Shown piece after piece: positions 44,329 through 64,000 of a DNA stretch of 64,000 nt (position 1 is its first letter; each line of letters starts with the position of its first letter). Below the pieces are notes generated by a model, which saw nothing but the letters and a program-made list of their open reading frames with translations, did not search any database and was not told where the DNA came from. Origin of the DNA: Streptomyces paludis (GTDB taxonomy: Bacteria > Actinomycetota > Actinomycetes > Streptomycetales > Streptomycetaceae); assembly GCF_003344965.1 (NCBI RefSeq), contig NZ_CP031194.1:4526001-4590000 (forward strand), read 5' to 3'. The translations under genes were made by a program, and so were the position numbers.

Positions 44329-44655
44329 CTACTTGCCGAGCGGCATGCCGCCGAGGAGCTGGCCGCCGCCGCTGCCGCCCTGGCGGGGCTTGTTCAGCTC
44401 CTGCGTCACCTGATTCACCGCGTGCAGCACCGAGCCCGGCCGCTCCGTGTCCAGCGCGTTGCTGTGCAGCGGCTGGGGGTCGCGCAGGCCCTGGGCCAGG
44501 ATGTCCTCCACGCCGCCGTTCAGGCTGAGCGAGGTGGTGGGGGCCGGTCCGGCGGCGGGCGCGGCGGCGGCGAGGGCCGGGGTGACGGCTCCGGCCAGCG
44601 CCAGCACGGAACCGGCGGTGGCGACGACAGTGGCGGTGATCTTGGTGGGCTTCAT
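44329..44655 (-). CDS. small secreted protein of unknown function
   Basis: 108 residues. A clear signal peptide (MKPTKITATVVATAGSVLAL, cleavage near ALA-AAAP at about residue 30) precedes a mature part of about 78 residues. Contents are an Ala/Pro-rich start, a mixed helical middle (GGVEDILAQGLRDPQPL and VNQVTQELNK), and a glycine-rich end GGSGGGQLLGGMPLGK. No cysteines, so it is not a chaplin, and no SapB or rodlin features. It lies 250 bp downstream of a chaplin gene on the same strand. The start at 44655 is preceded by AGAAGG. Possibly another component of the aerial-hypha surface, inferred only from context. Confidence 0.65.
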   Translation of the reverse strand: MKPTKITATVVATAGSVLALAGAVTPALAAAAPAAGPAPTTSLSLNGGVEDILAQGLRDPQPLHSNALDTERPGSVLHAVNQVTQELNKPRQGGSGGGQLLGGMPLGK

Positions 44656-44854
44656 CGGTGAATCCTTCTCTGGTGATTCCGCTTTCCCCGCGCGGCGCAA
44701 CTCACTTCTCACGCCCGGGCTTTGGGGATCTCCCCTCTTCCGGTGGCGATCCCGCTATCGTTAACGACTTCTCGGCGCGGCGGAAACTCCGTACCGGTCG
44801 AATTCTGCGCGGGCCACCCGAACGAGCGGCCAACGAAGCCGTGGAAACGCGGAA

Positions 44855-44886
44855 AGCCGTCCTTTCCCCTGGGGGAAAGGACGGCT
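44855..44886 (-). terminator. terminator of the short chaplin gene
   Basis: Near-perfect hairpin of about 14 bp (AGCCGTCCTTTCCCC with its complement, 44855-44869 and 44872-44886) and a very small loop, 16 bp past the chaplin stop. Confidence 0.8.
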
Positions 44887-44902
44887 CTTCGATACGACGA
44901 CG

Positions 44903-45142
44903 TCAGTTGTTGACGCAGACGTTCCCGAACGCCGGGTTCAGGATGCCGATGACGTCGATCGTGTTGCCGCACAGGTTGATCGGGACGTGCAGCGGGATCT
45001 GGATGACGTTGCCGGAGATGACGCCCGGGGAGCCGACAGCCGCGGCCGACGCGTCGGAGTCGGCGAAGGCGGCGCCGGAGGCACCGGCGACAGCGGCGGC
45101 GGCCGCGGCGGAGAGGACGACGGCCTTGGCGATACGCGACAT
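44903..45142 (-). CDS. short chaplin (hydrophobic amyloid surface protein)
   Basis: 79 residues with a Sec signal peptide (about 1-28, ending AFA) and a single chaplin domain. AAVGSPGVISGNVIQIPLHV is followed by PINLCGNTIDVIGILNPAFG and NVCVNN. The two cysteines form the disulfide of short chaplins. These self-assemble into amyloid fibrils at the air-water interface and coat aerial hyphae and spores. AGGAG lies 11 bp before ATG 45142. A BldN-type promoter (45209-45236) and a strong terminator make it a single-gene transcript. Lacks a sorting signal. The exact ChpD-H orthologue is not assigned. Confidence 0.93.
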   Translation of the reverse strand: MSRIAKAVVLSAAAAAAVAGASGAAFADSDASAAAVGSPGVISGNVIQIPLHVPINLCGNTIDVIGILNPAFGNVCVNN

Positions 45143-45208
45143 AGGGGAAAGGCTCCTCGGTCGTATGAAGATGACGTAAGCGCCGGGCGCGATTGCCCGA
45201 CTCATGCA

Positions 45209-45236
45209 TCAACGCCGAGGACCCCCGGAGGTTGCG
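45209..45236 (-). promoter_or_regulatory. BldN-type promoter CGCAAC-N16-CGTTGA
   Basis: On the minus strand CGCAAC (45231-45236), 16 bp, CGTTGA (45209-45214). The consensus for the developmental sigma factor BldN is CGTAAC-N16-CGTTGA, so 11 of 12 bases match with the right spacing. It lies about 70 bp before the chaplin start. BldN controls chaplin and rodlin genes in Streptomyces. Confidence 0.75.
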
Positions 45237-45442
45237 GGCCCGAACGGGTGAATCCACGTTCGGTGCGCTGCTCGTGGGGGTTCGCGAGGATCGCGAGAGT
45301 TCATCGGGGAGGGATTCTTCCGGTCACCCCTTCATATACGTGCAACTGTACGTTCAGCAGCTTTCAGCGCGTCTGGCGTGATTTTCAGTCCGCGCTCTGT
45401 AATGGTGCGTTCTGGTTTCGGACTTGGAGGCGGAGAGCCCGT

Positions 45443-46558
45443 ATGCGGAATTCTGCGGTTCGTGCGGTGGGGCGTGGCGTGCTGTGCGGTCTGGCCGTAC
45501 TCTCGCTGTCCGCAGCGGTATACCCACCGGTGGTCCCTTCATACTTCGCTCCGCGCGCCGGTGCGAGGGAAGACCCCCGTATTCCGTTCGCCGCCCGCTG
45601 GTACGCCGTGCAGCACGGCGGGATCGTACGGGCGGCCAACGCGGCCATCAGCTGCCGGGCCGAGGAGGGCGACCGTACGTCGGCCTGTGCGGCCGCGCGG
45701 GCCGGCGGGGACGCGGCCAATCAGCAATTCGACATGTTCTATTCGGATGTCGACGACGATCCCAACACCTACAACTCGACCCGCGCCGAACTGCGGCTGC
45801 CGGACCGCGCCCGGGTCAGCTACGCGCGCCTCTACTGGGGCGGCAATCTGCTGGTCGGCGAGCAGAAACCGGCCGCGGACAACGGGCGGGTGCTGATCGC
45901 CGAGCCGGGCGGCCGGTACAAGGAGATCCTGGCCGACACCGTGATCGGCCACCGGATCGCGGGCGGGGCCGACGCCTACCAGGCGTCCGCGGATGTGACG
46001 ACGCTGGTGAAGGACAGCGGTCCCGGGATGTACACCGTGGCGCAGCTCAATGTGGCCATGGGGCGCTCCGGCGCGGGTGCCTGGGGCGGCTGGACGCTGG
46101 TCGTCGCGTACAAGAAGGACGACGATCCGCTGCGGCATCTGTCGATCTGGGACGGTTTCGATCTGCTCGACGCGCGCCATGAGGAAGAGCGCGTCGACCT
46201 GGGCGCGATGCCCATTCCCGAACGGGCCTCCGGGCGGCTGGGAGTTGTCGCGTACGACGGTGACCGCGGGGTCACCGGGGACACGCTCGCCGTGGAAACG
46301 GGGAAGGGGAAAGGCGTTCTTCTCAGTAATAAAGATAACCCTTCCGATGATGTGATGAATTCCAGCATCACGGACTTCGATTCCCGTGCGATGAAGCGCG
46401 AGCCGGACTATGCGAACACCCTTGGGTATGACTCCGACGTGTTCGACCTGCGTGGTGCACTGGCATCCGGCGCCGACCGGCTTAGCGTTCGATTCGGCAC
46501 CGAGCGTGACTCCTTCTGGATCGGTGCGTTTTTCGTAGAGGCCGACGCGCAGTTCTGA
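45443..46558 (+). CDS. secreted protein of unknown function at the head of the polysaccharide locus
   Basis: 371 residues. A signal peptide is likely (GRGVLCGLAVLSLSAAVYPP, about 10-32). The rest is a beta-rich domain with VSYARLYWGGNLLVGE, GWTLVVAYKKDDDPLRHLSIW and a C-terminal SFWIGAFFVEADAQF. This pattern occurs in Streptomyces extracellular proteins annotated as DUF3344/DUF11-like; the family link is from memory. GGAG sits before ATG 45443. The last codons lie in a 15-bp repeat that continues past the stop. It precedes the glycosyltransferase gene by about 90 bp on the same strand, so it may belong to the same transcription unit. Confidence 0.7.
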   Translation: MRNSAVRAVGRGVLCGLAVLSLSAAVYPPVVPSYFAPRAGAREDPRIPFAARWYAVQHGGIVRAANAAISCRAEEGDRTSACAAARAGGDAANQQFDMFYSDVDDDPNTYNSTRAELRLPDRARVSYARLYWGGNLLVGEQKPAADNGRVLIAEPGGRYKEILADTVIGHRIAGGADAYQASADVTTLVKDSGPGMYTVAQLNVAMGRSGAGAWGGWTLVVAYKKDDDPLRHLSIWDGFDLLDARHEEERVDLGAMPIPERASGRLGVVAYDGDRGVTGDTLAVETGKGKGVLLSNKDNPSDDVMNSSITDFDSRAMKREPDYANTLGYDSDVFDLRGALASGADRLSVRFGTERDSFWIGAFFVEADAQF

Positions 46559-46645: not shown

Positions 46646-47881
46646 GTGCAGCCAGAACGGCACCGGCCAGGGACCGGCTTCACCGCGCTCCACCTCGTCC
46701 AGCCGGTCGACGGCGGAGTGGCCCGCGTGGTCCTGGACCTGGTCGCGGCACAAGTCGCCGCGGGGGTACGGGCGGTCGTCGGCTGCCCGGCGGAGGGACC
46801 GCTCGCCGCCGCCGCGGCCCGCCGGGGCGCCGAGGTCCATGTCTGGCGGGCCACCCGCGCCCCCGGGCCGGCGCTGCCGCGGGAGATCGCGGACGCGGCC
46901 CGGCTGGTCCGCCTCGTACGGCCCGATCTCGTCCACGCCCACAGCGCCAAGGCCGGACTCGCCGGCCGGCTGGCCGTACGGGGCCGTGTCCCGACCGTCT
47001 TCCAGCCGCACGCCTGGTCGTTCGAGGCGGTCGGCGGGGTGACCGCGCGGCTGGCCGGGCGCTGGGAGCGGTGGGCGGTGCGGTGGACCGACCGGATCGT
47101 GTGCGTCAGCGACGCCGAGCGGCGCACCGGCGAGCGGGCGGGCATCGAGGCCGTCTGGTCGGTCGTCCGCAACGGGGTCGAGGTCGATCGGTTCGGCGAC
47201 CGGGGCGACTTCGGAGGCGCGGCGGGGACCCGGCGGGCGGACGGCCGGGCCAGGGCCGACGCTCGGGCCGCCCTGCCGCTGCTCGCCGGGCGCCCGCCGG
47301 TCCTTCCTGATGTCCCCGACGCTCCCGTCGTCGTCTGTGTCGGCCGGCTCTGCCGTCAGAAGGGCCAGGACATCCTGCTCCGCGCCTGGCCGTCCGTCGT
47401 ACGGCGGTTCCCGGGGGCCCGTCTCGTCCTCGTCGGCGACGGGCCCGACGCAGGTGCCCTGCGCGCCGCCGCGCCGCCCTCCGTGCTCTTCGCCGGTGCC
47501 GTACCGGACACCGCGCCCTGGTACCGGGCGGCCGATCTGGTCGTTCTGCCCTCCCGTTGGGAGGGGATGGCCGTAGCACCCCTGGAGGCCATGGCGAGCG
47601 GCCGGGCCGTCGTCCTCAGCGATGTGGACGGCGCGCGCGAGTCCCTGCCGCCCGGCCGGGAAGCGCTCTGTCTCGCCCCGCCCGAGGACCCGGCCGCGCT
47701 GGCGGCGGCCATCAACACGCTGCTCGACGACGGGCCGCTGCGCGAAGCCATCGGCCGCCAGGGCCACCAGCACGTACTCGACACCCACGACGTGCGGCAG
47801 ACCGCGCGGGCCATCGCGGACGTGTACCGCGCCGTGGCCGCGGTGCCGCGCCCCGAGCGCAGGGAGCCGATTCCCCAGTGA
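46646..47881 (+). CDS. GT4-family glycosyltransferase
   Basis: 411 residues, GT-B fold. The N-terminal domain has LHLVQPVDGGVARVVLDLV and VHAHSAKAGLAGRLA. The nucleotide-sugar domain has VVCVGRLCRQKGQDILLRA, LVGDGPDAGALR and the GT4 signature PSRWEGMAVAPLEAMASGRA with its catalytic-site Glu pair. It transfers a sugar to a lipid-linked acceptor at the cytosolic membrane face. GTG 46646 has GGAAAG upstream; an upstream GTG at 46598 is in frame. First of eight plus-strand genes with overlapping stops and starts (46646-56843). Confidence 0.85.
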   Translation: MQPERHRPGTGFTALHLVQPVDGGVARVVLDLVAAQVAAGVRAVVGCPAEGPLAAAAARRGAEVHVWRATRAPGPALPREIADAARLVRLVRPDLVHAHSAKAGLAGRLAVRGRVPTVFQPHAWSFEAVGGVTARLAGRWERWAVRWTDRIVCVSDAERRTGERAGIEAVWSVVRNGVEVDRFGDRGDFGGAAGTRRADGRARADARAALPLLAGRPPVLPDVPDAPVVVCVGRLCRQKGQDILLRAWPSVVRRFPGARLVLVGDGPDAGALRAAAPPSVLFAGAVPDTAPWYRAADLVVLPSRWEGMAVAPLEAMASGRAVVLSDVDGARESLPPGREALCLAPPEDPAALAAAINTLLDDGPLREAIGRQGHQHVLDTHDVRQTARAIADVYRAVAAVPRPERREPIPQ

Positions 47882-49563
47882 CCACGGAAAGCACCAGCGT
47901 CCCTCCGCCGTCCGGGCGTGAGCGGACGGCGACGACGGCACGGCGCCCGGACGGTACGGCGGCCACCGGCCGGCCCACCGCCGTGAGCCAGGCGGTACGC
48001 GGGCGGACCGCCCCGGGGCGCGTGCCGATCGCGCCGCCCCGCGACACCCGTGGCGTACGCGAACTCCCCGACCGCCTCGCGCCACCGGCCCGCCGCCGGC
48101 CGCGGCGCTCCGCGCTCCGCTTCGCCCTGCCGCTGCTCGCGACGGATGTGCTCGCCGCGCTGCTGGCCACCGCCGTCCGCACCGACGGGCAGCCGGACGC
48201 CGTCCTGCCGCTCCAGCTCCTGACCCTCCTCCTCTGCGTCACCGCGCTGAACGCGCTCGCCGGGCTGTACCGGCACGGTGTCGTCCTCTCCGGCCTCGAC
48301 CAACTGCCCGCGCTGGCCGCGCGGATCGCGGTGGCCTGGTGCGCGGCGGCAGCGGTGTGCGCCGCGGTGTTCCCGGCCAACGCCCTTGGTTTCACCGCCC
48401 TGTTGAGCGCCGGAGCCGTACAGCTCGCCGTCGCCTGCGGCGGCCGTTCGCTCCTCCACACGCACCGCCGCTCGGCGGCCCGCAACCGGCTGCGCTCGGC
48501 GCTCGTCGTCGGCGCGGGCCCGGCCGTACGGCGGATCACCGCGCTGCTCGCCCAGCACCCGGAGTACGGCCTGCGGCCCGTCGGCGTCGCCTCCCCCACG
48601 GCCTGCGCGCCGGGGGAGCCCGCGAAGGACGACGGCGTCGGCGTCGGCACCGTACGGGAGAAGCGGGAGAAGGAGGGGACGCGCGACGGTGGGGGCAGCG
48701 GTGCCGGCCTGAGCGCGGACGCGCCCGCGCTGCCCGTTCTCACCACCCCCGAGGACATCCACCGCGCCGTCATCCAGAACGGCGTCCAGGAAGCCCTGTT
48801 CACCGAAGGCGGCGACCCCGGCGCCCGGGCAGGCATGGTCGCGCTCTTCCACACGTACGGCTGCGCCACCTGGTTCGTCGGCGCCGGGCCCTGGGACCTC
48901 GTCGCCCCGCGCGCCGTCATGGAGCGGCACCTGTGGGGATTCGGCTACCACCGCGTGGAGCCGCCCGCCACCGCCCGGCGCCGCCGGGGCGCCCTCGCCA
49001 AAAGGCTGCTGGACCTGCTGCTCACCGCGCCCGTCCTGGTGGCCGTCTCGCCGCTGCTGCTGCTCTGCGCGCTCGCCGTCAGGCTCGGCGACGGGCCGGG
49101 GGTGCTCTTCCGCCAGGAGCGCGTCGGGCAGCACGGCCGCCCGTTCACCCTGCTGAAGTTCCGTACGCTGCGCCCCTCCGACGACCAGGAGTCGGCCACC
49201 CGCTGGAACATCGCCAACGACCGCCGTATGAGCCCGGTCGGCAATCTGCTGCGCCGCACCTCCCTGGACGAGCTGCCGCAGCTGTGGAACGTGCTGCGCG
49301 GGGACATGAGCCTCGTCGGCCCCCGGCCCGAACGCCCCTACTTCGTCGCCAACTTCAGCAAGACCCACCCGGGTTACGCGGCCCGCCACCGGATGCCCGT
49401 CGGTATCACCGGCCTGGCGCAGGTCCACGGGCTGCGCGGGGACACCTCCATCGAGGAGCGGTCCCGGTTCGACAACCACTACATCGACCACTGGTCGCTC
49501 TGGCAGGACGTGTGCATCATCGTGCGGACCGCGGTGTCCCTCGTCCGGCCGGCGGGCAGCTGA
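47878..49563 (+). CDS. polyprenyl glycosylphosphotransferase (initiating sugar transferase)
   Basis: 561 residues. After a disordered N-terminus of about 75 residues come membrane helices and a Rossmann-like middle domain (LVVGAGPAVRRITALLAQHP). The C-terminal bacterial sugar transferase domain follows the last helix (LAKRLLDLLLTAPVLVAV), with VLFRQERVGQHGRPFTLLKF, SLDELPQLWNVLRGDMSLVG and PRPERPYF. It starts the repeat unit by moving a sugar-1-phosphate onto undecaprenyl phosphate, as WbaP/CpsE do. GTG 47878 overlaps the upstream stop. Present in one copy, so it defines this as a Wzx/Wzy-style pathway. Confidence 0.92.
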   Translation: MTTESTSVPPPSGRERTATTARRPDGTAATGRPTAVSQAVRGRTAPGRVPIAPPRDTRGVRELPDRLAPPARRRPRRSALRFALPLLATDVLAALLATAVRTDGQPDAVLPLQLLTLLLCVTALNALAGLYRHGVVLSGLDQLPALAARIAVAWCAAAAVCAAVFPANALGFTALLSAGAVQLAVACGGRSLLHTHRRSAARNRLRSALVVGAGPAVRRITALLAQHPEYGLRPVGVASPTACAPGEPAKDDGVGVGTVREKREKEGTRDGGGSGAGLSADAPALPVLTTPEDIHRAVIQNGVQEALFTEGGDPGARAGMVALFHTYGCATWFVGAGPWDLVAPRAVMERHLWGFGYHRVEPPATARRRRGALAKRLLDLLLTAPVLVAVSPLLLLCALAVRLGDGPGVLFRQERVGQHGRPFTLLKFRTLRPSDDQESATRWNIANDRRMSPVGNLLRRTSLDELPQLWNVLRGDMSLVGPRPERPYFVANFSKTHPGYAARHRMPVGITGLAQVHGLRGDTSIEERSRFDNHYIDHWSLWQDVCIIVRTAVSLVRPAGS

Positions 49564-51068
49564 TGGCCACGGCCGTGGTCCTGGATACGGCTGCCGCCGT
49601 GTCCGACGCGCCCGTACGGCCCGCTGCCCGGCCGCCCCTCCCGTGGCGCCGGGCCGCCCCGCTGCTCCCCGCGATCGCCGTCGTCGTCCTGCTCGCCGTA
49701 CCGGTGGCGCCCGCCGGGGACGGTACGGCCGGCTCCGGGAGCCCGGCGGACGTGGCGTCCGCGCTGCTCGTCCTCCACTGCCTCGTCCGCGTACTGCGCG
49801 ACCGGGCCCGCCCGTTGACCCGTACGGCGGCGTTCGTCCTCGGACTCCCGGTGCTCGGGGTGACCGTCGCGTCCCTCACCGCCCAGGACCCGGCGGTGAG
49901 CCTGCCCGGCCTGGCGCGCTACCTCCAGATCTTCGTGCTGGTGCCCGCCGCGCTGCTGCTGCTCCTGCGCGACCGCTGGGACTTCCGGCTGCTGGCCGGG
50001 TCCGTGGTCGCGGTCGCGCTCGTCCAGGGCGCGGTCGGCGTCGGCCAGTACCTGACCGGTACGGGCGCCTCGTACAAGGGCGAGGACGTCCGCGCGGTCG
50101 GCACCTTCGGACCGACCGATGTGATGGGGATGGCCACCGTCGTCGCGTACGGGCTGGTCATCGCGGTCGGCTTCGCCGTCGGCGGGAAGGGCGGGAAGGG
50201 CGGCAAGGGCGGCAAGGGCGGTACTGGGGCCGGTCGGCCGGGCGCGTGGACGGGGGCGCGCCTCGCCGCCCTCGGCTGCGCCGGGCTGCTGGCCGTACCC
50301 CTCCTCCTCTCCTTCAGCCGCGGCGCCTGGATCGCCACGGCGGTCGCGGTCGTCTGCCAGCTCGTGCTCTCCGGGCCGCGCCGCGCCGCCGCGGCGCTGC
50401 TCGCGGCCGGCGCGCTCGGGGTCGTGCTCGTCGGCGGGCTCGGCATCGGCTCGCAGCTCGTCACCGAGCGCGTCGACTCCATCGCGCGCGTGGCCGACGC
50501 GCCGGACCAGTCCGTCACCGACCGGTACACGATGTGGGCCGCCGCCGCCGACATGTGGCGTACGCGACCGCTGACCGGCGTCGGGCTGAAGGGTTTCCCC
50601 GAACACCGCGACAGCCACGCCTCGCTGGCCCTCTCCTCCGGCAGCGATACGGCGGGCGCCGGGCTGGGCTTCCAGCGTCAGCCGCTGCTCTCCCCGCACA
50701 ACATGTACCTGCTGGTCCTCAGCGAACAGGGGCTGCTCGGCGTTCTCGCGCTGGTCGGCAGCTGGGCCGCGCTGCTTCTGCTGGGGCTGCGGGCGCTGTG
50801 GCGCTCCCGTACCGGCCGCCGTGCGGGTGGCGGGGGGTGTGGTCTTGTCGTCATCGGGCTGCTGGTCTGGCAGTTGGTGGACTTCGGGTACGCGGACATC
50901 GGCGGGCCCTCGACCGTGCTGACGGCCGTGATGCTGGGACTGGCGGCCTGGTGGGCGCTCGGGGCCGGGCCGGACGGTGACGCGTTTGACGGTGCTGTGC
51001 CGGAGGGTGCTGTGCCGGGTGGAGCCACGCCGGGCGGGGTCGTCTCGGACGGGGTCGCCCGCGCATGA
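49563..51068 (+). CDS. O-antigen ligase/polymerase-like (Wzy/WaaL) membrane protein
   Basis: 501 residues with about 11-12 hydrophobic segments and one large outer loop near residues 290-390. That loop contains RYTMWAAAADMWRTRPLTGV, PEHRDSHASLA and SPHNMYLLVLSEQGLLGVLA. The H-N-x-Y/L-L-x-x-x-x-E-x-G-L/G pattern is the hallmark of the Wzy_C domain. A cytosolic GGKGGKGGKGGKGG spacer lies near residue 205. It joins preassembled repeat units (Wzy) or transfers the chain to an acceptor (WaaL). Overlap TGATG with the previous gene. Start ATG 49563. Confidence 0.88.
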   Translation: MATAVVLDTAAAVSDAPVRPAARPPLPWRRAAPLLPAIAVVVLLAVPVAPAGDGTAGSGSPADVASALLVLHCLVRVLRDRARPLTRTAAFVLGLPVLGVTVASLTAQDPAVSLPGLARYLQIFVLVPAALLLLLRDRWDFRLLAGSVVAVALVQGAVGVGQYLTGTGASYKGEDVRAVGTFGPTDVMGMATVVAYGLVIAVGFAVGGKGGKGGKGGKGGTGAGRPGAWTGARLAALGCAGLLAVPLLLSFSRGAWIATAVAVVCQLVLSGPRRAAAALLAAGALGVVLVGGLGIGSQLVTERVDSIARVADAPDQSVTDRYTMWAAAADMWRTRPLTGVGLKGFPEHRDSHASLALSSGSDTAGAGLGFQRQPLLSPHNMYLLVLSEQGLLGVLALVGSWAALLLLGLRALWRSRTGRRAGGGGCGLVVIGLLVWQLVDFGYADIGGPSTVLTAVMLGLAAWWALGAGPDGDAFDGAVPEGAVPGGATPGGVVSDGVARA

Positions 51069-55626: not shown

Positions 55627-56843
55627 TGGGATCCCCCACGCGGTCGCGGACCGCCCCGGCCCTCCGCGCGCCGGTCTCCTCCGTACCGGTGGCCGCCCTG
55701 CTCACCGTCTCCCGGTCCGGCAGGGCCTTCACCACGGAGATCTGCGCGGACGCCGCGCGGTTCGGCGCGATCGCCCCGGAGTGGGACGCCCTCTACCGCG
55801 CCTCCCGTACGGCCACCCCGTTCCAGAGCCACGCCTGGCTGCACTCCTGGTGGCAGTCGTACGGGACGGGCGGCGGCGGCAGGCTGCGGGTCGTCCTGGT
55901 CCGCCGGGGCGGGGAACTCGTCGCCGCCGCGCCGCTGATGCTGCTGTTCCGGCCGCTTCCCGTCCTCGTACCGCTCGGTGGCACCATCACCGACTTCTCC
56001 GATGTCCTGCTGGACGAGTCCCGTACCGACGAGGAGACCGAGGCCGCCGTCACCGCGCTGGCGAGGGCCTTCGCCGAACTGGCGGGCACGGCCGTGATCG
56101 ATCTCCGCGAGGTACGCCCCGGAGCCGCCGCCGAGCGCGTCTACGCCCGCTGGACCGGCCCGCGCCGCCGGCTCGCCGACTCGCCCTGCCTCGAACTGCC
56201 CGCCGTACCGATGGAAGGGCTGCTCGCCCGGCTCCCCGCGTCCCGCGCCCAGCGCGTCCGCGCGAAGCTGCGCAAGCTCGACGCGCTCGGTATCGAGGAG
56301 CGCGAGGTCCCGGCGGACGAGGTGCCGGTCGCGGTCGGCCGGCTGCTGGAGCTGCACCGGCTCCAGTGGGAGGGGCGCGGTGTCACCCCCGAGCACCTCA
56401 GCGCCCGCTTCGCCGAGCATCTGACCAGGGCCGCGCGGACCATGGTCGCGAGCGGCGACGCCCGGCTGACGGAGTTCCGGCTCGCGGGGGCGGTGGTCGC
56501 GGCCGATCTCACCCTGATGTCCGGCGCGCTGGCGGGCGGTTATCTGTACGGGGCCGATCCCGTGCTGCGCGCGCGGAAGGCGGACGTGGCCACGATGCTG
56601 CTGCGCGCCGGGGCCCGGGACAGCGGCGCGCACGGGCGCGCGACGCTGAGCATGCTGCGCGGCGACGAACCGTACAAGCACCACTGGCGCCCGGAGACCG
56701 TCCGCAACCAGCGGCTGCTGCTGGCCCGGCCCCATCTCGCGCCGTCCCTGTGGCTGCTGCTGGCGCGGGCGGCGGGGCGGGAGCGGGCGGCGACGCTGGT
56801 CAAGCGGGCGCGGAAGACGGAGGAAGGCGGCGACAAGGGATGA
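55626..56843 (+). CDS. CelD/FemAB-like GNAT acyltransferase
   Basis: 405 residues of the acetyltransferase-6 (CelD/BcsL, FemAB-like) group. TPFQSHAWLHSWWQSYGTG at about residue 60 is the diagnostic N-terminal segment. GGYLYGADPVLRARKADVAT and the late RGDEPYKHHWRPET are typical of the C-terminal GNAT domain. Relatives attach acyl or amino-acyl groups to cellulose-like polymers or peptidoglycan. It is the last gene of the coupled run, its ATG overlapping the upstream stop (TGATG). The predicted role is acyl modification of the polysaccharide; the donor is unknown. Confidence 0.85.
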   Translation: MGSPTRSRTAPALRAPVSSVPVAALLTVSRSGRAFTTEICADAARFGAIAPEWDALYRASRTATPFQSHAWLHSWWQSYGTGGGGRLRVVLVRRGGELVAAAPLMLLFRPLPVLVPLGGTITDFSDVLLDESRTDEETEAAVTALARAFAELAGTAVIDLREVRPGAAAERVYARWTGPRRRLADSPCLELPAVPMEGLLARLPASRAQRVRAKLRKLDALGIEEREVPADEVPVAVGRLLELHRLQWEGRGVTPEHLSARFAEHLTRAARTMVASGDARLTEFRLAGAVVAADLTLMSGALAGGYLYGADPVLRARKADVATMLLRAGARDSGAHGRATLSMLRGDEPYKHHWRPETVRNQRLLLARPHLAPSLWLLLARAAGRERAATLVKRARKTEEGGDKG

Positions 56844-56931: not shown

Positions 56932-58284
56932 TCACTTCCGCAGGCGCTCCCCCCACCAGTCGAGCCGCAGACAGAGCTTGCCGCCGAGCCACTTCTCGAC
57001 CAGCGGGCCGAGGTTGAGCGGGGTGCAGTTCTGCGGGCGGCTGGGCGGGGGAGTGGGAGCGGGCGTCGACTCGGGTTCGGGCGTCGGGTCCGGCGTCGGG
57101 TCGGGCGTCGGCTTCGGCGTCGACTCGGGGTCGGGTGCCGGCGGCGGAGTCGGGTCCGGCGTGGAATCCGGCGTGGGAATCGGCGTGGGAACCGGCGGCG
57201 TCGGATCCGGTGTCGGCTCCGGTGTCGGCGTCGGGGTGGGATCCGGCTCGCGTGCGGAGAGCATGGACCGGAACACCTTCGACGACTCGGGATTCTTCTC
57301 GCACTGCCAGATGCCGTGCGGACAGTAATCCGTGACCGTGTTGTACAGCGGCTTGTACGTGTCGATCCACTGGAGCATGCGCCGCATGTATTCGGGGTTG
57401 TCTCCGTTGCGGAAGAGGCCCCACTCCGGATAGGAGATAACCTTTCCGTGTGCAGCGGCGAAGTCCACGTGTTCCTGAAGCCCGAGAGGCTCATTCACCT
57501 GTTCGTCAAAAGTCCGGCCGGGCGGCTGATCGTACGAATCCATGCCGATGACATCCACGACATCGTCACCGGGATAGCACGCGGTCCACGGAACGGCGTC
57601 CCGTCCGCGATTCGGCGCGAAGTCGAAACGGAACTTCTGCCCGGGAACGGCACGCATGGCGGTGACAATGCGGTTCCAGTATCTCTTCCACGCCTGTGGG
57701 TCGGGCCCGCAACGATGGGTGTACGTCGTGCCGTTCATCTCCCAGCCGAGCACGATCACCGTGTCCGGGACGCCGAGGTCCACCAGCCGCCGGGCCAGCG
57801 CCGTGAAGTGGCCGTCGTACTGTCCGTACGCGCCTCTGCGCAGCTCACGGCGGACGAGCCGGTCGGGCACCCGCCCCTCGGTGCGCTCCAGCATCGGTAC
57901 GTTGAGGACGAACAGCCGGTCGTCCTTGGCCTTGCGCCAGGCCGCCCAGTCCTCCAGGAAACCCGGGCTTCCCTCGATGTTGGACCACACGTCCCCGGGG
58001 AGATAGGTGTGGCCCACGCGCAGCTCCGTACCGCCGAGCCATTTCTCCATGGCGGCGATGCGCTGGACGCCACTGGGACCGAAATCCAGATACGCGCCGA
58101 GCGCGGGCGAGGCGGCCTGGGGCGGTTTCCGCTTCTCCGCGCTTTCGGGGCCGTTCAGTGCTCCCGCGCTCTCCTGTCCCTCCGCCGTACCGGCCGGAGT
58201 CGGAAGCGCCGCGCCGGAGACAAGGAGACCGGCTGTGACCGCCCCCAGGCAGGTGGTCGTCAGCCTTCGACGTCTGGATGGCAT
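56932..58284 (-). CDS. secreted GH26-like glycoside hydrolase with PT-repeat linker
   Basis: 450 residues. The signal peptide [19 protein letters not shown] precedes a (beta/alpha)8-type domain (about 60-340). It has [18 protein letters not shown] (acid/base Glu in WEMNG) and [11 protein letters not shown] (candidate nucleophile Glu), as in GH26 mannanase relatives. A linker of about 65 residues made of (D/E)-P-T-P repeats leads to a C-terminal 30-residue segment with two cysteines and a Trp pair ([23 protein letters not shown]). GAGGAG lies before ATG 58284. Reversed relative to the synthesis genes, it could trim or release the polymer outside the cell. Confidence 0.85.
57040..57245 (-). repeat. 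GGCGTCGG-type minisatellite coding the Pro-Thr linker
   Basis: About 200 bp of imperfect 6-, 9- and 12-bp repeats of GGCGTCGGNTCC type on the plus strand encode the P-T-P-D-P linker of the secreted hydrolase. Such arrays often vary in length between strains without breaking the frame. Confidence 0.8.
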
Positions 58285-58455
58285 GTCAGCTCCTCGTGAT
58301 TCGAACCCGTTTCCGCGGTCGCGACCCGGAATCGTGCAGCCACGTTGAGCGTAAAAGTATTTCTAATAAGCCGATCGGGAACCTGGCCCGGCGCTCCAGT
58401 AGTCCATCCGTGAATTTCATCCCCCGCATGGGGTATCGATCTGAAGGACCCCACC

Positions 58456-59877
58456 GTGCCGAGCTTCGACACCCGTGTCCCCGCCGTCCTGCTGCGGCTC
58501 GACCGGAACCCGTTCCACCACGGCACGCTGGGCGCCGTCCGGTCGCTGGGCCGGGCCGGGATCGAGGTGCACGCGGTCGTCGAGTCCGCGCGCAGCCCCG
58601 TCGGACGCTCCCGCTATCTGCACCGGGCCCATCTACGGCCGCTCCGGGGACCGGATCTGACACCCGCTCCGGACTTCGACGGGACCGCGCGGCTGCTGCT
58701 CGGGATCGCGGACGGGCTCGCCGGGCCGGCCGTGCTGGTGCCGATGGACGATCTGAGCGCGATCGCCGTGGCGCGCCTCCGCGAGCGCCTGACCGGGCGT
58801 TATCTCCTGCCTGAGCAGCCGTCAGGGCTGCCCGAGCGGGTCGCCGACAAGGCGGAGCTGGCCGGGATCTGCCGCGAGCTGGACATCCCCCACCCCCGGA
58901 CGGTGGTGCCCGGCTGCGCGGCGGAGGCGGCTGCCGCCGCCTGGTCGCTCGGGCTGCCGGTGGTGGCGAAGTGGAGCCGGCCCTGGCTGCTGCCCGAGGG
59001 CACGGGGCTGCGCAGTACGCAGGTGGTCCGCTCCCCGCGGGAGGCGCGGGAGCTGTACGGGCGGGCGGCGGAGGCGGGCAGCGGGCTGCTGCTCCAGGAG
59101 TTCCTGGCGCCGGGGCCCGACCTGGACTGGTTCTTCCACGGTTACGGCGGCGGTCCCGGCCGCCGCTTCCTGGGCGCCGCCGGGCGCAAGGAGCGGGCCT
59201 GGCCGGTGGGGGCGGGGCTGACGGCGGTGGGCCGGTGGCTGCCCAATCCGGAGGTGGAGCGGACGGCGCGTCAGCTCGTCTCGGCGCTCGGCTACCGGGG
59301 CATCCTCGATCTCGACTTCCGCCGCGACGCCGCCTCCGGCGCGTACCACCTGCTCGACTTCAACCCCCGGCCCGGAGCGCAGTTCCGGCTCTTCACCGAC
59401 CGGGCGGGCGTCGATGTCGTCCGCGCGCTCCATCTGGACCTCACGGGCCGGACCGTACCGGCGCAGGAGGCGGCGCACGGGCGGACGTTCGTCGTGGAGA
59501 ACTACGCGCTGCTCTCCGTCCTCGCCTCGGCGCGCTCGGCCGCCCCCAGGCCGTCCCCGTCCGGGGCGCGGGCCGCGGCGGCGGGGACCGAGACCGCGTG
59601 GTGCGCGCTGGACGACCCGTGGCCCGCCGGCGCGATGGCCGTGGCCTGGGCGCTGCACGCCGTACGGCGCGGCTGGCGCCGGCTCCGGCGCGCGCTGCCG
59701 TCGCGGCGGCGTGCGGGCGGCGGCGGGCGGTCGCGGACGCCCCCGGTACGGCAGCGACGGGGCAGCCCCGACCGGCCCGACCGGCCGCACCGCCCGGATC
59801 GCGCCGACCGCCCCGACCGCCCGGATCGCTCGGACCGTACGACGCCGGGTGGGCCCGTACCGAGGCGGACCCGATGA
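58456..59877 (+). CDS. ATP-grasp ligase with D-R-P repeat tail
   Basis: 473 residues. The pre-ATP-grasp domain has VPMDDLSAIAVARLRERL and the ATP-grasp domain begins LADK-like at PERVADKAELAGICRELDIP. VVAKWSRPW carries the ATP-binding Lys, and the metal-binding end GILDLDFRRDA, LLDFNPRPGAQFRL holds the Asp/Asn/Arg set. It joins a carboxylate to an amine or similar nucleophile through an acyl phosphate. The C-terminal 45 residues are a cationic-acidic (D-R-P-D-R-P) repeat. GAAGGA precedes GTG 58456. Its stop overlaps the FAD-enzyme start, so the two are coupled. Confidence 0.85.
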   Translation: MPSFDTRVPAVLLRLDRNPFHHGTLGAVRSLGRAGIEVHAVVESARSPVGRSRYLHRAHLRPLRGPDLTPAPDFDGTARLLLGIADGLAGPAVLVPMDDLSAIAVARLRERLTGRYLLPEQPSGLPERVADKAELAGICRELDIPHPRTVVPGCAAEAAAAAWSLGLPVVAKWSRPWLLPEGTGLRSTQVVRSPREARELYGRAAEAGSGLLLQEFLAPGPDLDWFFHGYGGGPGRRFLGAAGRKERAWPVGAGLTAVGRWLPNPEVERTARQLVSALGYRGILDLDFRRDAASGAYHLLDFNPRPGAQFRLFTDRAGVDVVRALHLDLTGRTVPAQEAAHGRTFVVENYALLSVLASARSAAPRPSPSGARAAAAGTETAWCALDDPWPAGAMAVAWALHAVRRGWRRLRRALPSRRRAGGGGRSRTPPVRQRRGSPDRPDRPHRPDRADRPDRPDRSDRTTPGGPVPRRTR

Positions 59878-61277
59878 GCCGCACCGGCGACACGAACCCC
59901 GTGCCCCTCGGCGGCCCCGGCAGCCCCGGCGTCTTCGGCACGACAACGACTACACGCTCCACGCCCCATACCTCCGGAACAGAGAGCGGGACAGACACGA
60001 TGCACGACCTGGTAGTGGTGGGCGCCGGCCCCTACGGACTCTCCATCGCGGCACACGCCGCCGCGGCCGGCCTCGATCTGCGGGTGTTCGGCCGGCCGAT
60101 GGCCTCGTGGCGGGACCACATGCCGCCCGGGATGTTCCTCAAGTCCGAGCCCTGGGCCTCGAACCTCTCCGACCCGAAGCGCTCCTTCGGCCTGGCCTCC
60201 TACGCCGCCACGCGCGGGGTCGAGGCCCGGCACGGGGTGCCGCTGCCGGTGGGCTTCTTCGCCGCGTACGGACTCTGGTTCGCGGAGCGGGCCGCGCCGC
60301 CGGTCGACGAGCGGACGATCACCTCCGTACGGCCCTGCCCGGGCGGGTTCCGGCTCACCGCGGAGGACGGCGAGACCGTCCTCGCCCGTACGGTGGCGCT
60401 CGCGATCGGGGTCATGCCGTTCATCGACATCCCCGCCCCGCTGCGCGGACTGGCGCCCGAGCAGGCGACGCACAGCAGCCACCACGCGGATCTGACCCGC
60501 TTCGCCGGGCAGGACGTGACCGTCATCGGCGCGGGCCAGGCGGCGCTGGAGACGGCCGCGCTCCTCGCCGAACAGGGCACCACCGTACGGGTGGTGGCCC
60601 GGTCGGGCCGGCTGAACTGGAACACCCTGCCGCCGCCCCGGCAGCGCCCCTTCGGCCAGTCGGCGCGCGCCCCGCACACCGGTCTGGGCTGCGGCTGGAA
60701 GAACTGGCTGTACGCGGAGACCCCCGGCCTCTTCCGCCGGCTGCCGGAGGAGACCCGGGCCCGGGTCTTCACCTCGGCGCTCGGCCCGGCGGGCGCCTGG
60801 TGGCTGCGGGAGCGCTTCGAGCCGGCGGTGGAGGTTCGGCTCGGTGAGAGCGTGGCGGCGGCGGTCCCGGCGAACGGGCGGCTGCGGCTGGAGCTGATCG
60901 CGAACACCGGGCGGGTGGAGACCCTGGAGACGGACCATGTCATCGCCGCCACCGGCTTCACGCCCGGCCTCGAACGGCTGGGGCTGCTCGACGGTGAACT
61001 GGCGGGCTCGCTGCGGACGGTGGGGCCCACGAGCGCGCCCGAGGCGAGCGCGGTCTTCGAGTCGTCGCACCCCGGGCTGTTCCTCGCGGGGCTGCTGAGC
61101 GCTCCGTCGTTCGGCCCGTCGATGCGCTTCGTGTACGGCGCCTCGTACACGGCGGAGCGGCTGGTACGAGGGGTACGGCGGCGGCTCGGCGCGGGCGGCG
61201 GCGGCAGCGGGCCGCGGGTGACGGTCCGGCAGCGGCGGGGCGAGGGGGAGACCGTACCGACGTCGGCGGTGTCCTGA
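59874..61277 (+). CDS. FAD/NAD(P)-dependent monooxygenase-like protein
   Basis: 467 residues from ATG 59874, or 425 from ATG 60000, which begins just before the FAD motif. The FAD loop is LVVVGAGPYGLSIAAHA, followed by WRDHMPPGMFLKSEPWASNL, and the NAD(P) loop is VTVIGAGQAALETAALLAEQ. HVIAATGFTPGLERLG is the ATG motif linking the domains. This arrangement is that of flavin N-hydroxylases and Baeyer-Villiger-like monooxygenases, but no standard subclass fingerprint was seen. Coupled by ATGA to the ATP-grasp gene, suggesting they act on the same substrate. Confidence 0.85.
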   Translation: MSRTGDTNPVPLGGPGSPGVFGTTTTTRSTPHTSGTESGTDTMHDLVVVGAGPYGLSIAAHAAAAGLDLRVFGRPMASWRDHMPPGMFLKSEPWASNLSDPKRSFGLASYAATRGVEARHGVPLPVGFFAAYGLWFAERAAPPVDERTITSVRPCPGGFRLTAEDGETVLARTVALAIGVMPFIDIPAPLRGLAPEQATHSSHHADLTRFAGQDVTVIGAGQAALETAALLAEQGTTVRVVARSGRLNWNTLPPPRQRPFGQSARAPHTGLGCGWKNWLYAETPGLFRRLPEETRARVFTSALGPAGAWWLRERFEPAVEVRLGESVAAAVPANGRLRLELIANTGRVETLETDHVIAATGFTPGLERLGLLDGELAGSLRTVGPTSAPEASAVFESSHPGLFLAGLLSAPSFGPSMRFVYGASYTAERLVRGVRRRLGAGGGGSGPRVTVRQRRGEGETVPTSAVS

Positions 61278-61388: not shown

Positions 61389-62309
61389 TCAGACGCGCGC
61401 GGCGGGCCTGTTGCGGCGGTAGAGGACGCCGCCCGCGATCAGCAGGCCGGCGCTGAGCGCACCGGTGGTGAGCAGGTGGGAGCCGGCGCCGGTGGCGGCC
61501 AGCTCGTCGGTGCGCGCGGGCGTCGACGCCTCGGGGGCGGTGGGCGCCGCGGCGACCGGCTTGACGACGGGCTTGACGGCCTCGGTCTGGGGCACGGGGT
61601 TGTTCGGGGTGCCGGGGGTGCCGGGGGTCTCGGGGGTGTTCGGGGTGTGCGGCGGGACGGAGGTGGACGGCGGGTTTCCGGTGCGGCCGTCGGTCGGGGG
61701 CGAGACCGGGGGCACCTCCTTCTCCTCGTCGGGGGAGCCGGGGGTCACGGGCCGGACCGGGGGCCGGCCGGGGGCGGCCGGCGTACCGTTCACACAGGTG
61801 TTGCCGAAGGCCGGGTTGAGCAGACCGACCACGTCGATGGAGTCGCCGCAGACGTTGAGCGGGACGGCGACGGGCACTTCGAGGCCGTTGCCCGCGAGGA
61901 CGCCCGGCGAACCGGTCACGAGGGCGGTGGAGCTGGCGCCCTCGCTGTGGCTGCCGCGCCCGCCTCCGTATCCGTCGGGGGAGCCGTACGCGTCGGTGGA
62001 TCCGTGACCGCCGTGCGAGCCGTAACCGCCGTGCGAGCCGTAACCGCTGTGGTGCGCCTTCGGTGAGCCCGACGAGTTGACGCAGGTGTTGCCGAAGACG
62101 GGGTTGAGCAGACCGATGACGTCGATGGTGTTGCCACAGAGGTTGACGGGGATGTCGACGGGCACCTGGACGCCGTTGCCCGAGAGGACGCCGGGGGAGC
62201 CGGCGACTACGGCGTCGGCGTCCGCCGCCTGGGCGGATCCGCCGCTCAGGGACAGCACACTCGACGCCGCGGCGGCGGTGAGCAGCCCTTTGCTGATGAG
62301 GTCTCGCAC
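61389..62309 (-). CDS. chpC: long chaplin with two chaplin domains and sortase signal
   Basis: 306 residues. The signal peptide ends in GSAQA at about residue 28. Chaplin domain 1 (about 35-80) has SPGVLSGNGVQVPVDIPVNL and LLNPVFGNTCVNS. A Gly/Ser/Tyr/His spacer (GYGSHGGYGSHGG) leads to domain 2 (about 115-160) with NAFGNTCVNG-like end and a Pro-rich wall-spanning stretch. LAATG, a membrane helix and a basic tail form the class E sortase signal. Long chaplins are covalently anchored to peptidoglycan and hold the short ones. GTG 62309 has AGGAG at a good distance. The ChpC label rests on adjacency to the ChpH-like gene and is otherwise interchangeable with ChpA/B. Confidence 0.9.
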   Translation of the reverse strand: MRDLISKGLLTAAAASSVLSLSGGSAQAADADAVVAGSPGVLSGNGVQVPVDIPVNLCGNTIDVIGLLNPVFGNTCVNSSGSPKAHHSGYGSHGGYGSHGGHGSTDAYGSPDGYGGGRGSHSEGASSTALVTGSPGVLAGNGLEVPVAVPLNVCGDSIDVVGLLNPAFGNTCVNGTPAAPGRPPVRPVTPGSPDEEKEVPPVSPPTDGRTGNPPSTSVPPHTPNTPETPGTPGTPNNPVPQTEAVKPVVKPVAAAPTAPEASTPARTDELAATGAGSHLLTTGALSAGLLIAGGVLYRRNRPAARV

Positions 62310-62377: not shown

Positions 62378-62397
62378 AACCGGCCCGGGACACCGTG

Positions 62398-62631
62398 TTA
62401 CTTGTTGATACAGGTGTTGCCGAAGGCCGGGTTGAGCAGCGAGATGATGCCGATGCTGTTGCCGCAGATGTTGATCGGGATGTGGAGCGGCACCTGGACG
62501 ACGTTGCCCGAGAGGACGCCGGGTGAGCCGACGGCGACGGCACCGGCGTCCGAGTCGGCCATGGCCGGGGCCGCGGCGCCCAGCGCCAGGACCAGTCCCG
62601 CGGCGACGGCCGCGGCCTTCATGCTCTTCAT
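62398..62631 (-). CDS. chpH: short chaplin, ChpH-like
   Basis: 77 residues. Signal peptide of about 25 residues ending AMA, then one chaplin domain: AVGSPGVLSGNVVQVPLHIP, INICGNSIGIISLLNPAFG and NTCINK, with the cysteine pair. Two substitutions differ from the usual pattern (GNSIGIIS for GNTIDVIG), removing the usual Asp. It forms surface amyloid with the other chaplins. ATG 62631 follows AAAGGG. It lies immediately upstream of the long chaplin, the chpC-chpH arrangement known from Streptomyces. No clear BldN promoter was found for it. Confidence 0.92.
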   Translation of the reverse strand: MKSMKAAAVAAGLVLALGAAAPAMADSDAGAVAVGSPGVLSGNVVQVPLHIPINICGNSIGIISLLNPAFGNTCINK

Positions 62632-62813
62632 GGTGTAGCCCTTTCCGCAGCGGCGAATACGTCCGCACGACGGTCGTGGCACGTGAGCATCCGCTTTCTC
62701 AGCTCTTTACGTCCGCTGCGAAAAGTCCAACGAATGTGACGTTACGAGGAAACTGCCCCGAATTGGGTGGTACGTCGGGTTCACTCAATTGACGCAGTCG
62801 CCGGGAAACGCGA

Positions 62814-62845
62814 ACCGGCCCGGTGCGTCATTGCGCCGGGCCGGT
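62814..62845 (-). terminator. terminator of the minus-strand rodlin gene
   Basis: 10-bp stem ACCGGCCCGG/CCGGGCCGGT (62814-62823 with 62836-62845), 12-nt loop, 21 bp beyond the rodlin stop. Confidence 0.75.
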
Positions 62846-62866
62846 CCGTCGGCCGGGGAGCCCCGG

Positions 62867-63280
62867 TCAGCCGTTGGCCACACCGTTGCCCGAGAGCACC
62901 GGGATGTTGTTGACGAGGTGCGACAGCGGCTCGTCCTGCTTGGCCTGCGTGGAGTTGTCCGCGCACTGCTGGTTCTGCGGGTTGGCGAGGACGTTGACGT
63001 CCTGGACGGCGACCGGCACGAGGATGCCGACCAGCGCGCCGACGTTGGCCTTGACCGGGACGCCGAGGCAGAGCTTGTTCAGCGAGCCCTGGATCAGCTC
63101 GGCCTGGGGGCTCTGGTCGCCCTTGGTCGTCGAGTTGCCGAAGGCGCTCTCGGCGCCGTTCCCGCTGAGGGAGATCGGGCCGTCGTCGTTGCCGATGGCG
63201 AGAGCGGGGGCCGCGGCGGCAGCGGTAACGCCGACTACGGAGGCGGCCACGGCCGCGCCGGCCATAATCTTCTTGATCAC
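62867..63280 (-). CDS. rdlA/rdlB: rodlin (rodlet-layer protein)
   Basis: 137 residues. The signal peptide [20 protein letters not shown] ends near ALA-IGND. The mature protein has the rodlin features: [60 protein letters not shown] and the C-terminal [15 protein letters not shown], with two cysteines. Rodlins pack chaplin fibrils into the paired rodlets on aerial hyphae and spores. GTG 63280 has AAAGGAACAC upstream. It is divergent from the second rodlin gene, as in S. coelicolor. Which is RdlA and which RdlB cannot be decided here. Confidence 0.93.
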
Positions 63281-63342
63281 GGTGTGTTCCTTTGATGGTG
63301 AAGAAAAAGCAGATCCAGCGATGCAGCAATGCAGCGACCTGA

Positions 63343-63370
63343 ACAACCATCCATTCGCTGTTTGGTTCCG
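63343..63370 (-). promoter_or_regulatory. putative BldN-like promoter of the minus-strand rodlin
   Basis: On the minus strand CGGAAC (63365-63370), 16 bp, GGTTGT (63343-63348). This matches the BldN consensus CGTAAC-N16-CGTTGA at 9 of 12 bases with correct spacing. The surrounding sequence GAACCAAACAG closely resembles that at the opposite promoter. Confidence 0.5.
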
Positions 63371-63461
63371 ATGCTTCACCCGAACGGCTTGCGGGTCGGC
63401 GTGGCATTGCCGCGCGACCGGAGTGAGTAATAGGCCATTGGAGTGAAGAGGGGGGTCCCGT

Positions 63462-63490
63462 CAGAACCAAAGAGGCGGGTGGGGAGTTGC
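63462..63490 (+). promoter_or_regulatory. putative promoter of the plus-strand rodlin
   Basis: CAGAAC (63462-63467) and AGTTGC (63485-63490) with 17 bp between them. The stretch GAACCAAAGAGGCG...GTTGCTCAG aligns base by base with the minus-strand promoter, implying the same sigma factor despite a weaker match to the consensus. Confidence 0.45.
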
Positions 63491-63540
63491 TCAGAGGGCT
63501 CCGGGAACTTAGGGGCATCCGTCAGAAGGGGACTCAGATC

Positions 63541-63951
63541 GTGATCAAGAAGGTTATGGCCGGCGCGGCCGTCGCCGCCTCCGTCGTCGGCGTCTCCGCC
63601 GCCGCGGCGGCCCCGGCGCTCGCCATCGGCAACGACGGTGGACCCACGTCCGCGAGCGGCAACTTCGCCACCCAGCAGTACGGGAACATGTCGACGTACG
63701 GCGACATGAGCCCGCAGATCGCCCTCATCCAGGGCTCTTTCAACAAGCCCTGCATCGCGCTGCCGGCCAAGGCGAACCTCGGCTCCCTCATCGGCCTCGT
63801 GCCGATCGGTCTCCAGGACATCAACGTCCTGTCCTCGCCGCAGAACCAGCAGTGTGTCGAGAACTCGACGCAGACGAAGGGCGACGAGCCCCTGTCGCAC
63901 ATCCTGGACAACATCCCGATCCTGTCCGGGAACGGTGTGGCCAACCGCTGA
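63541..63951 (+). CDS. rdlA/rdlB: rodlin (rodlet-layer protein)
   Basis: 136 residues, clearly a paralogue of its divergent neighbour. Signal peptide [20 protein letters not shown] ends near ALA-IGND. The mature part has SGNFATQQYGNMSTYGDMSP, LIQGSFNKPCIALPAKANLG, LQDINVLSSPQNQQCVENST and [14 protein letters not shown], with the same two cysteines. GTG 63541 follows AAGGGG. The two rodlins differ most in the 20 residues after the first SGN, where this one is Tyr/Met-rich. The pair arose by local duplication and inversion, or both genes were kept from an ancestral divergent pair. Confidence 0.93.
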   Translation: MIKKVMAGAAVAASVVGVSAAAAAPALAIGNDGGPTSASGNFATQQYGNMSTYGDMSPQIALIQGSFNKPCIALPAKANLGSLIGLVPIGLQDINVLSSPQNQQCVENSTQTKGDEPLSHILDNIPILSGNGVANR

Positions 63952-63968
63952 GAAGCCGGCCGACCGGG

Positions 63969-64000
63969 CCGGCCCACCGCTGAATTCCGCGGTGGGCCGG
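63969..64000 (+). terminator. terminator of the plus-strand rodlin gene
   Basis: Perfect 12-bp stem CCGGCCCACCGC/GCGGTGGGCCGG (63969-63980 with 63989-64000), 8-nt loop, 18 bp after the stop and ending at the window edge. Confidence 0.8.

Follow-up and report, generated by a model that had tools for sequence, protein, structure and literature searches.

A putative Wzx/Wzy-type polysaccharide operon among the chaplin and rodlin genes of Streptomyces

The island and its closest described relatives

In the holdfast (Hfs) system of Caulobacter, a phosphotransferase, glycosyltransferases, a deacetylase and an acyltransferase produce an adhesive polymer that is de-acetylated and is accompanied by amyloid-like anchor proteins. 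The XrtA/PEP-CTERM exopolysaccharide (EPS) set of Gram-negative bacteria comprises the same kinds of enzymes as the locus analyzed here, an eight-gene polysaccharide operon (46646-56843) in a stretch of 64,000 nucleotides of Streptomyces paludis (NZ_CP031194.1, positions 4,526,001 to 4,590,000 of the forward strand; hereafter the window). The original prediction, made from the letters of the window, placed this operon within an island where chaplin and rodlin genes enclose it together with genes for a secreted GH26-like enzyme, an ATP-grasp protein and a flavoenzyme, and these genes were all confirmed in the sequence (Table 1). The eight polysaccharide genes all read in the forward direction, each overlapping the next by 1 to 11 bases. 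On balance we favor, with modest confidence, their interpretation as a Wzx/Wzy-type surface heteropolysaccharide operon that is accessory to the chaplin-rodlin coat rather than its foundation, and whose product is probably not an essential anchor of the amyloid layer.

By its profile matches the operon resembles the XrtA/PEP-CTERM EPS set, to which it is not assigned. An XrtA-type model was the best NCBIfam match of both GT4 glycosyltransferases (GT_A and GT_B) and of the Wzy_C protein, and stood lower among the matches of the phosphotransferase and the deacetylase; every XrtA-specific model scored below its cut-off, as with GT_A (TIGR04063, 100.1 against 442.05), GT_B (TIGR03088, 102.5 against 409.05), Wzy_C (TIGR03097, 44.8 against 188.1) and TIGR03006 (42.6 against 276.2). 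Across the 17 distinct window proteins compared with NCBIfam, the matches listed included no exosortase, and the surface proteins encoded nearby are here chaplins and rodlins. The Hfs scheme is similar on paper, with scores far below cut-off for HfsE (152.6 against 750) and HfsH (45.4 against 400), and its anchor proteins are presumably unrelated to the coat proteins of the window.

Among the surface polysaccharides of Streptomyces itself, those of CslA/GlxA and MatAB depend on synthase-type enzymes, whereas the window operon would follow a lipid-linked Wzy-type route; we take the CslA/GlxA and MatAB genes to be encoded elsewhere than the island. The available part of PMC5972031 reports that the CslA polymer anchors fimbriae working with chaplins. 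Ebosin of Streptomyces sp. 139 is likewise produced from a multi-gene heteropolysaccharide cluster (ste) that, according to the accessible portion of PMC11078827, contains regulators and nucleotide-sugar genes, unlike the window operon; in that portion chaplins are mentioned solely among the references. The S. coelicolor chaplin tags given in the available part of PMC5650626 (chpF, SCO2705; chpA/chpD, SCO2716/2717) delimit an interval with the same flanking chaplins in the same order, which appears to correspond to the island; with ten tags between chpF and chpA there and twelve genes here, two optional genes are probably missing from that interval. In the literature searched we found neither a study devoted to the genes of the chpF-chpA interval nor any experiment on the operon genes; one paper, in its available part, used SCO2713 as control RNA. 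That the chaplin-rodlin/polysaccharide island had not been described as a unit, as originally suspected, agrees with this search, which returned no such description.

Distribution of the operon and of the coat genes

The Streptomyces sample comprised 121 genomes, S. paludis included, and a flippase match at E 1e-20 or better was found in 90 of them. Loci of up to 20 kb each, mostly from long contigs, were fetched from 60 of the 89 other flippase-match genomes, two of the loci (L015 and L068) being shorter than 20 kb. Such loci are related by descent and are not independent trials, which holds for all locus, adjacency and motif counts given here. The eight operon genes kept the same order and direction in 57 of the 60, the exceptions being L068, where the contig ends, L057, with no FemAB match, and L051, in which the phosphotransferase was matched twice. 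A chaplin gene was present in 48 loci, at a median distance of 1.5 kb from the operon, and a rodlin gene in 34, while a chaplin is expected in about 1% of random 20-kb windows (a hand estimate that takes S. paludis to have about five chaplin clusters in its 8.45 Mb). Extension of 11 of the 12 chaplin-less loci by 20 kb on each side gained chaplins in 2 (L107 and L120). A set of named loci, the best-scoring 80 of more than 557 and overlapping in part with the other loci (same strains), contained a chaplin in 56 and a rodlin match in 35 of the 65 that reached at least 19 kb.

Three geometries were distinguished. The first, that of the window, has a chaplin on the left of the operon and a chaplin-rodlin block on the right; in the second, chaplins and rodlin all lie on the left; in the third, a single chaplin follows the last operon gene at 109-192 bases, and the rodlin loci lie elsewhere where fetched. 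Geometry 3 occurred in nine of the ten loci of one clade on the operon tree, the tenth (L033) having no chaplin downstream of the operon, and in four named loci; S. globisporus, S. microflavus and strain SirexAA-E likewise show it. Locus L095, which comes from a different genus of the family, has chaplins on either side of the operon, and rodlins as well. Outside the order, a class sample of 246 yielded a single genome with a match to the FemAB-type profile. The original prediction had asked for a check of conservation across Streptomyces; since the association is genus-wide and takes several geometries, an adjacency confined to this strain, and with it a strain-specific accident, was rejected.

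The coat genes are more widespread than the operon. Chaplins were detected in all 121 genomes, among them the 31 without a flippase match, 30 of which also lacked the FemAB-type gene. Rodlins were matched in 25 of these 31 genomes and in 67 of the 90 with a flippase match (Fisher p 0.63), and an obligate operon-rodlin partnership was therefore not borne out. In several genomes without the operon (loci L129, L130 and L136) the chaplin-rodlin clusters are compact, their gaps measuring about 1 kb or less, and contain no operon match. Operon genes with no chaplin in the fetched stretch were in turn found in L096, L097 and L098, from two genera of the family (the operon of L097 being cut by the contig start), and in L105, from another family. 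The latter has seven of the eight operon genes in order, with one GT4 gene after the FemAB gene and no chaplin in 20 kb, and also carries the GH26, ATP-grasp and flavoenzyme genes; its source genome (G507) has only weak, repeated PF03777 matches elsewhere. The occurrence of operon genes without chaplins and of the coat without the operon indicates that the polysaccharide genes form a separate module, which in most but not all cases shares its location with the coat genes. As a separate observation, a gene for a GEVED-domain protein (L105:18132-19307, forward strand) follows the flavoenzyme gene, at the place occupied by the long chaplin in the window.

On an rpoB tree of 59 of the 121 genomes (31 without and 28 with a flippase match; single gene, midpoint-rooted), operon presence or absence changes at least 14 times (Fitch), and 3 of 500 label shuffles gave as few changes (mean 19.9), indicating that absence is partly inherited and partly recurrent. 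One genome coded as operon-lacking, G010, has matches to GT_A, the phosphotransferase, the deacetylase, GT_B and a FemAB fragment, with no Wzy, flippase or Wzz match, and its recoding reduces the count to 13. The change count alone does not separate loss from gain. Loss is favored by the incomplete operon of G010 and by a lone GT_A-like gene between two chaplin groups (L135:12479-13567, reverse strand) in a genome without flippase or FemAB-type match, from which we infer that operon absence is mostly loss.

The original prediction went further, proposing that the operon makes a dedicated polymer that anchors or organizes the chaplin-rodlin amyloid layer, as part of an integrated sheath-assembly system. 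The adjacency (48 of the 60 fetched and 56 of the 65 named loci), its recurrence in three geometries on the operon tree and in L095, and the BldM-type sites described below are all in line with this proposal, as is the need of chaplin fimbriae for a polysaccharide anchor reported in the available part of PMC5972031. However, the anchor polymer reported there is that of CslA, chaplins persist in the 30 genomes devoid of both flippase and FemAB-type genes, rodlins are no rarer where the flippase is missing, and L096-L098 and L105 carry the module without a chaplin in the fetched stretch. Chaplins and rodlins, moreover, often have a sigma-BldN-like promoter that the operon start lacks. The anchoring claim, which we consider improbable, is weakened by how often the operon is missing, by its distinct promoters and by the role reported for CslA; of the integrated system proposed, the genus-wide adjacency was supported. 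With the coat genes present and the sugar genes missing in a quarter of the sampled species, the polymer would be at most optional to the coat.

Candidate promoters and regulatory sites

Upstream stretches, in sets that were not de-duplicated, were scored against a 12-position sigma-BldN-like consensus, at a threshold of 10/12 or better. The pattern was present in 36% of 282 chaplin upstreams (shuffles 4%) and in 60% of 121 rodlin upstreams (shuffles 3%), but in none of 81 stretches before DUF3344 and none of 54 before GT_A as first gene, and a sigma-BldN promoter common to the coat genes and the operon was rejected. Before the GH26 and ATP-grasp genes its frequency (2-4%) equaled the shuffled level. 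Independently of any consensus, AACC-N16-GTTG was found in 73 of 105 rodlin upstreams. In the window, the chaplin gene at the left of the operon is preceded by CGCAAC-N16-CGTTGA (11/12), and wherever a chaplin lay 3' of the operon (13 of 13 loci) it had a sigma-BldN-like pattern of its own, at 10/12 or 11/12.

A different picture emerged with the BldM Group I palindrome, TCACcCgnncGgGTGA, whose consensus is published in PMC4125116 (available part) and which was scored over 14 positions in de-duplicated upstream sets. At 12/14 or better, a site preceded the ATP-grasp gene in 33 of 87 loci (shuffles 0), and 41 of the 47 sites found there at 11/14 or better fell in one 20-base position window. 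The same score was reached before GH26 in 12 of 122 stretches, before chaplins in 10 of 256, before rodlins in 4 of 105, before DUF3344 in 4 of 74, before GT_A as first gene in 3 of 53 and before operon-internal genes in 0 to 4 of 120-138. At 11/14, rodlins scored in 36 of 105 stretches, equivalent to 21 of 70 loci since divergent pairs share one site; these sites are only suggestive, as certain coding stretches match them in score. The putative BldM-type sites before the ATP-grasp gene leave a partial link to development, and the operon's tailoring unit is most likely under developmental control in many species, where the GH26/ATP-grasp/flavoenzyme unit would be timed through that site. The core operon would use a promoter unlike that of the chaplins and rodlins.

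A WhiG promoter in the GH26/ATP-grasp region was considered and dropped, as the window has one site at 10/12 but only 3 of 94 loci reached 10/12 and none 11. A further conserved stretch, TGACACTCAGTCATAT, lies between the GH26 and ATP-grasp genes in many loci (for example L014, L046 and L070); a TGAC-N5-GTCA inverted repeat makes up the first part of this stretch, of which no clear copy was seen in the window.

Alternatively, a capsule operon could have landed in an ancestral chaplin-rodlin cluster and been kept there by descent with no functional link to the coat. The relatives with the operon and no chaplin in the fetched stretch and the compactness of the operon-less clusters L129, L130 and L136 would be expected under such neutrality, and so would an operon start lacking the sigma-BldN-like pattern and rarely (4/74 and 3/53) preceded by a 12/14 BldM-type site. 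Less easily reconciled with it are the fixed position of the BldM-type site before the ATP-grasp gene and the geometry-3 clade, in which the operon, though separated from the rodlins, is followed by a chaplin at 109-192 bases, and we regard neutral neighborhood as rather unlikely.

The interpretation of the operon as a Wzx/Wzy-type locus accessory to the coat has several points to contend with. That chaplins adjoin the operon in three different arrangements speaks for a tighter link than the word accessory implies. The window stretches before the ATP-grasp and FemAB-type genes reach 10/12 to the sigma-BldN-like pattern. The BldM-type site before the window's ATP-grasp gene is degenerate (10/14), coding stretches before GT_A after DUF3344 (21/74) and before GT_B (24/138) score at 11/14, and comparison with shuffles overstates the weight of the site because the loci share ancestry. 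The Wzy_C protein could, by its family, be a ligase, and the Wzz-like assignment is weak, with scores below cut-off for PF02706 (17 against 25.5 bits) and TIGR01006 (20 against 296).

Gene products, proposed pathway and significance

The best reading of the product, deduced from the gene families as regards both its chemistry and its surface location, is a partly de-acetylated surface heteropolysaccharide. The phosphotransferase would load the first sugar on undecaprenyl phosphate, and the two GT4 enzymes would lengthen the lipid-linked sugar to a short repeat unit. In the CE4 deacetylase, residues D83, D84, H147 and H151 are invariant across 25 sequences and no hydrophobic segment was found, so that it should act in the cell, on the lipid-linked intermediate, taking off an N-acetyl group; the FemAB/GNAT-type enzyme may then acylate the freed amine. 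The window FemAB-type protein had no NCBIfam match, but of the 27 members aligned, 8 matched TIGR03019 (pepcterm_femAB) at E up to 1, the best of them at 8.7e-04; the alignment had no match to PDB sequences at E 0.1. The flippase, above cut-off for PF03023 (199.9 bits) and below it for murJ_mviN (207.6 against 235.55), is by these scores a MurJ-family protein rather than a classical Wzx, and would flip the repeat unit for polymerization by the Wzy_C protein, with the Wzz-like protein setting the length. The DUF3344 protein and the GH26-like enzyme would act outside, on the product, and the ATP-grasp/flavoenzyme pair would add an optional modification.

The Wzy_C protein might instead be a ligase: surface proteins or the wall would receive the undecaprenyl-linked glycan, and the product would then be no free polymer but a glycoprotein or a glycan of the wall. 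The NCBIfam model that Wzy_C matches best is indeed a putative O-glycosylation ligase (TIGR03097), with TfpM also among the matches, the operon has a single Wzy_C gene, and a secreted DUF3344 protein is encoded at its head. Both matches are nevertheless far below cut-off, the Wzz-like gene, itself a weak assignment, points to polymerization, and mature chaplins are reportedly unmodified by mass spectrometry; a ligase is, in our judgment, very unlikely.

Among the genes around the operon, that for the GH26-like enzyme was present in 58 of the 60 loci, ATP-grasp in 35, DUF3344 in 32 and the flavoenzyme in 28, and the GH26/ATP-grasp/flavoenzyme unit may go along with the operon where no chaplin is near. 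The GH26-like family matched GH26 mannanases of the PDB (best 1.6e-06). Two of its glutamates, E182 (WEMNG) and E287 (PEWG), are invariant in 21 sequences, with only E287 in the PDB-aligned stretch, and we take them to be the two catalytic glutamates of GH26. At its C-terminus (56932-57130) the window protein has a linker rich in Pro and Thr and then a short tail whose two cysteines are kept in most of the 21 sequences, and this part may bind the wall or a polymer. The ATP-grasp call of the original prediction gained support: the 473-residue protein had no Pfam match at E 0.01 and in NCBIfam only a weak carbamoyl-phosphate-synthase-like match (0.0045), yet its AlphaFold2 model matched ATP-grasp enzymes (Foldseek; 2vpq, E 5.6e-16, TM 0.54, and PurK), and according to this model it folds as an ATP-grasp enzyme. 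The beta-rich DUF3344 model (mean pLDDT 65.7, weak Foldseek matches) was not used.

The PF03777 domains of the three window chaplin genes scored at least 90 bits against a cut-off of 21. Signal-like N-terminal segments were clear in both short chaplins and read by eye in the long one, which has a LAATG sortase-like C-terminus and a C-terminal hydrophobic segment. A third rodlin gene begins about 120 bases past the right edge of the window. In another family of the order (G125, G127 and G132), open frames of up to 688 residues contain several PF03777 domains each. On the left flank, the 108-residue secreted protein had no Pfam or NCBIfam match at E 0.01; it was matched in 9 of the 60 operon loci and in 7 of 20 stretches fetched around rodlins, and the DUF5949 gene was matched in 18 of these 20. 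Both genes also adjoin operon-less chaplin-rodlin clusters. A tyrosinase gene (PF00264) near the island gave tblastn matches in 42 of 171 loci, some strains being counted twice (for example L040:13375-14235 and L095:3295-4164, both on the reverse strand, and edges of other loci), and in the geometry-3 locus L040 a cytochrome P450 gene (14427-16205, forward strand) lies between tyrosinase and GH26 genes. In S. coelicolor, melC (SCO2700/2701) presumably lies between chpG and chpF.

Table 1 Features of the window, with coordinates and supporting matches.
Feature	Coordinates	Strand	Evidence
DUF5949 protein (HYP43)	43054..43560	+	PF19374 1.1e-70
Small secreted protein, 108 aa	44329..44655	-	hydrophobic N-terminal segment
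Short chaplin, position of chpF	44903..45142	-	one PF03777 domain, 4.6e-27
BldM-like site between chaplin and DUF3344, GGGCCCGAACGGGTGA	45236..45251	.	11/14
Secreted DUF3344 protein, ahead of operon	45443..46558	+	PF11824 3e-07
GT4 glycosyltransferase A (GT_A)	46646..47881	+	PF13692 1.2e-38
Undecaprenyl-phosphate sugar phosphotransferase	47878..49563	+	PF02397 1.3e-62; TIGR03025 327.5 bits, cut-off 295.55
Wzy_C polymerase or ligase	49563..51068	+	PF04932 2.2e-19, 70.2 bits against 31.7; nine hydrophobic segments
MurJ-family flippase (putative Wzx role)	51065..52873	+	PF03023 7.8e-59
CE4 polysaccharide deacetylase, predicted cytoplasmic	52863..53750	+	PF01522 1.9e-28
GT4 glycosyltransferase B (GT_B)	53747..54928	+	PF13439 6e-26
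Wzz-like chain-length protein (weak)	54925..55626	+	PF02706 0.0076; TIGR01006 3.6e-04
FemAB/GNAT-type acyltransferase	55626..56843	+	PF13480 3.4e-21
Secreted GH26-like glycoside hydrolase	56932..58284	-	PF02156 8.9e-06, 25.7 against 20.2 bits
Degenerate BldM-like site before ATP-grasp gene, TCCCCCGCATGGGGTA	58420..58435	.	10/14
ATP-grasp protein, 473 aa	58456..59877	+	AlphaFold2 model, mean pLDDT 81.7; Foldseek
FAD/NAD(P)-dependent oxidoreductase (flavoenzyme)	59874..61277	+	PF07992 2.9e-16; start 59874 or 60000
Long chaplin, position of chpA	61389..62309	-	two PF03777 domains, 2.7e-46
Short chaplin, position of chpD	62398..62628	-	one PF03777 domain, 5.6e-26
Rodlin	62867..63280	-	NF041022 208.3 bits, cut-off 75
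BldM-like site between divergent rodlins, TCACCCGAACGGCTTG	63376..63391	.	11/14
Rodlin, divergent	63541..63951	+	matched by first rodlin, E 6.7e-57

Chaplins and rodlins are the textbook coat proteins of Streptomyces, and the genes between them had no assigned function in the literature searched. The enclosed genes can now be read as one polysaccharide pathway, and the coat genes occur in many sampled species from which that pathway is absent. In a bolder reading, which we consider less likely than not, the locus would be a genus-wide developmental surface island that deposits, along with the amyloid, a polysaccharide that is de-acetylated, trimmed and timed by BldM, tuning the coat rather than enabling it; the odds of this reading are reduced by the modest contrast between the rodlin BldM-type sites and coding-sequence controls. 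If so, the polymer would affect adhesion, wetting and spore dispersal, and lineages of other ecology would drop the sugar genes and keep the amyloid. Natural pairs of species with and without the operon, both having chaplins and rodlins, together with one candidate regulatory site, are where the link between polymer and amyloid can be tested.

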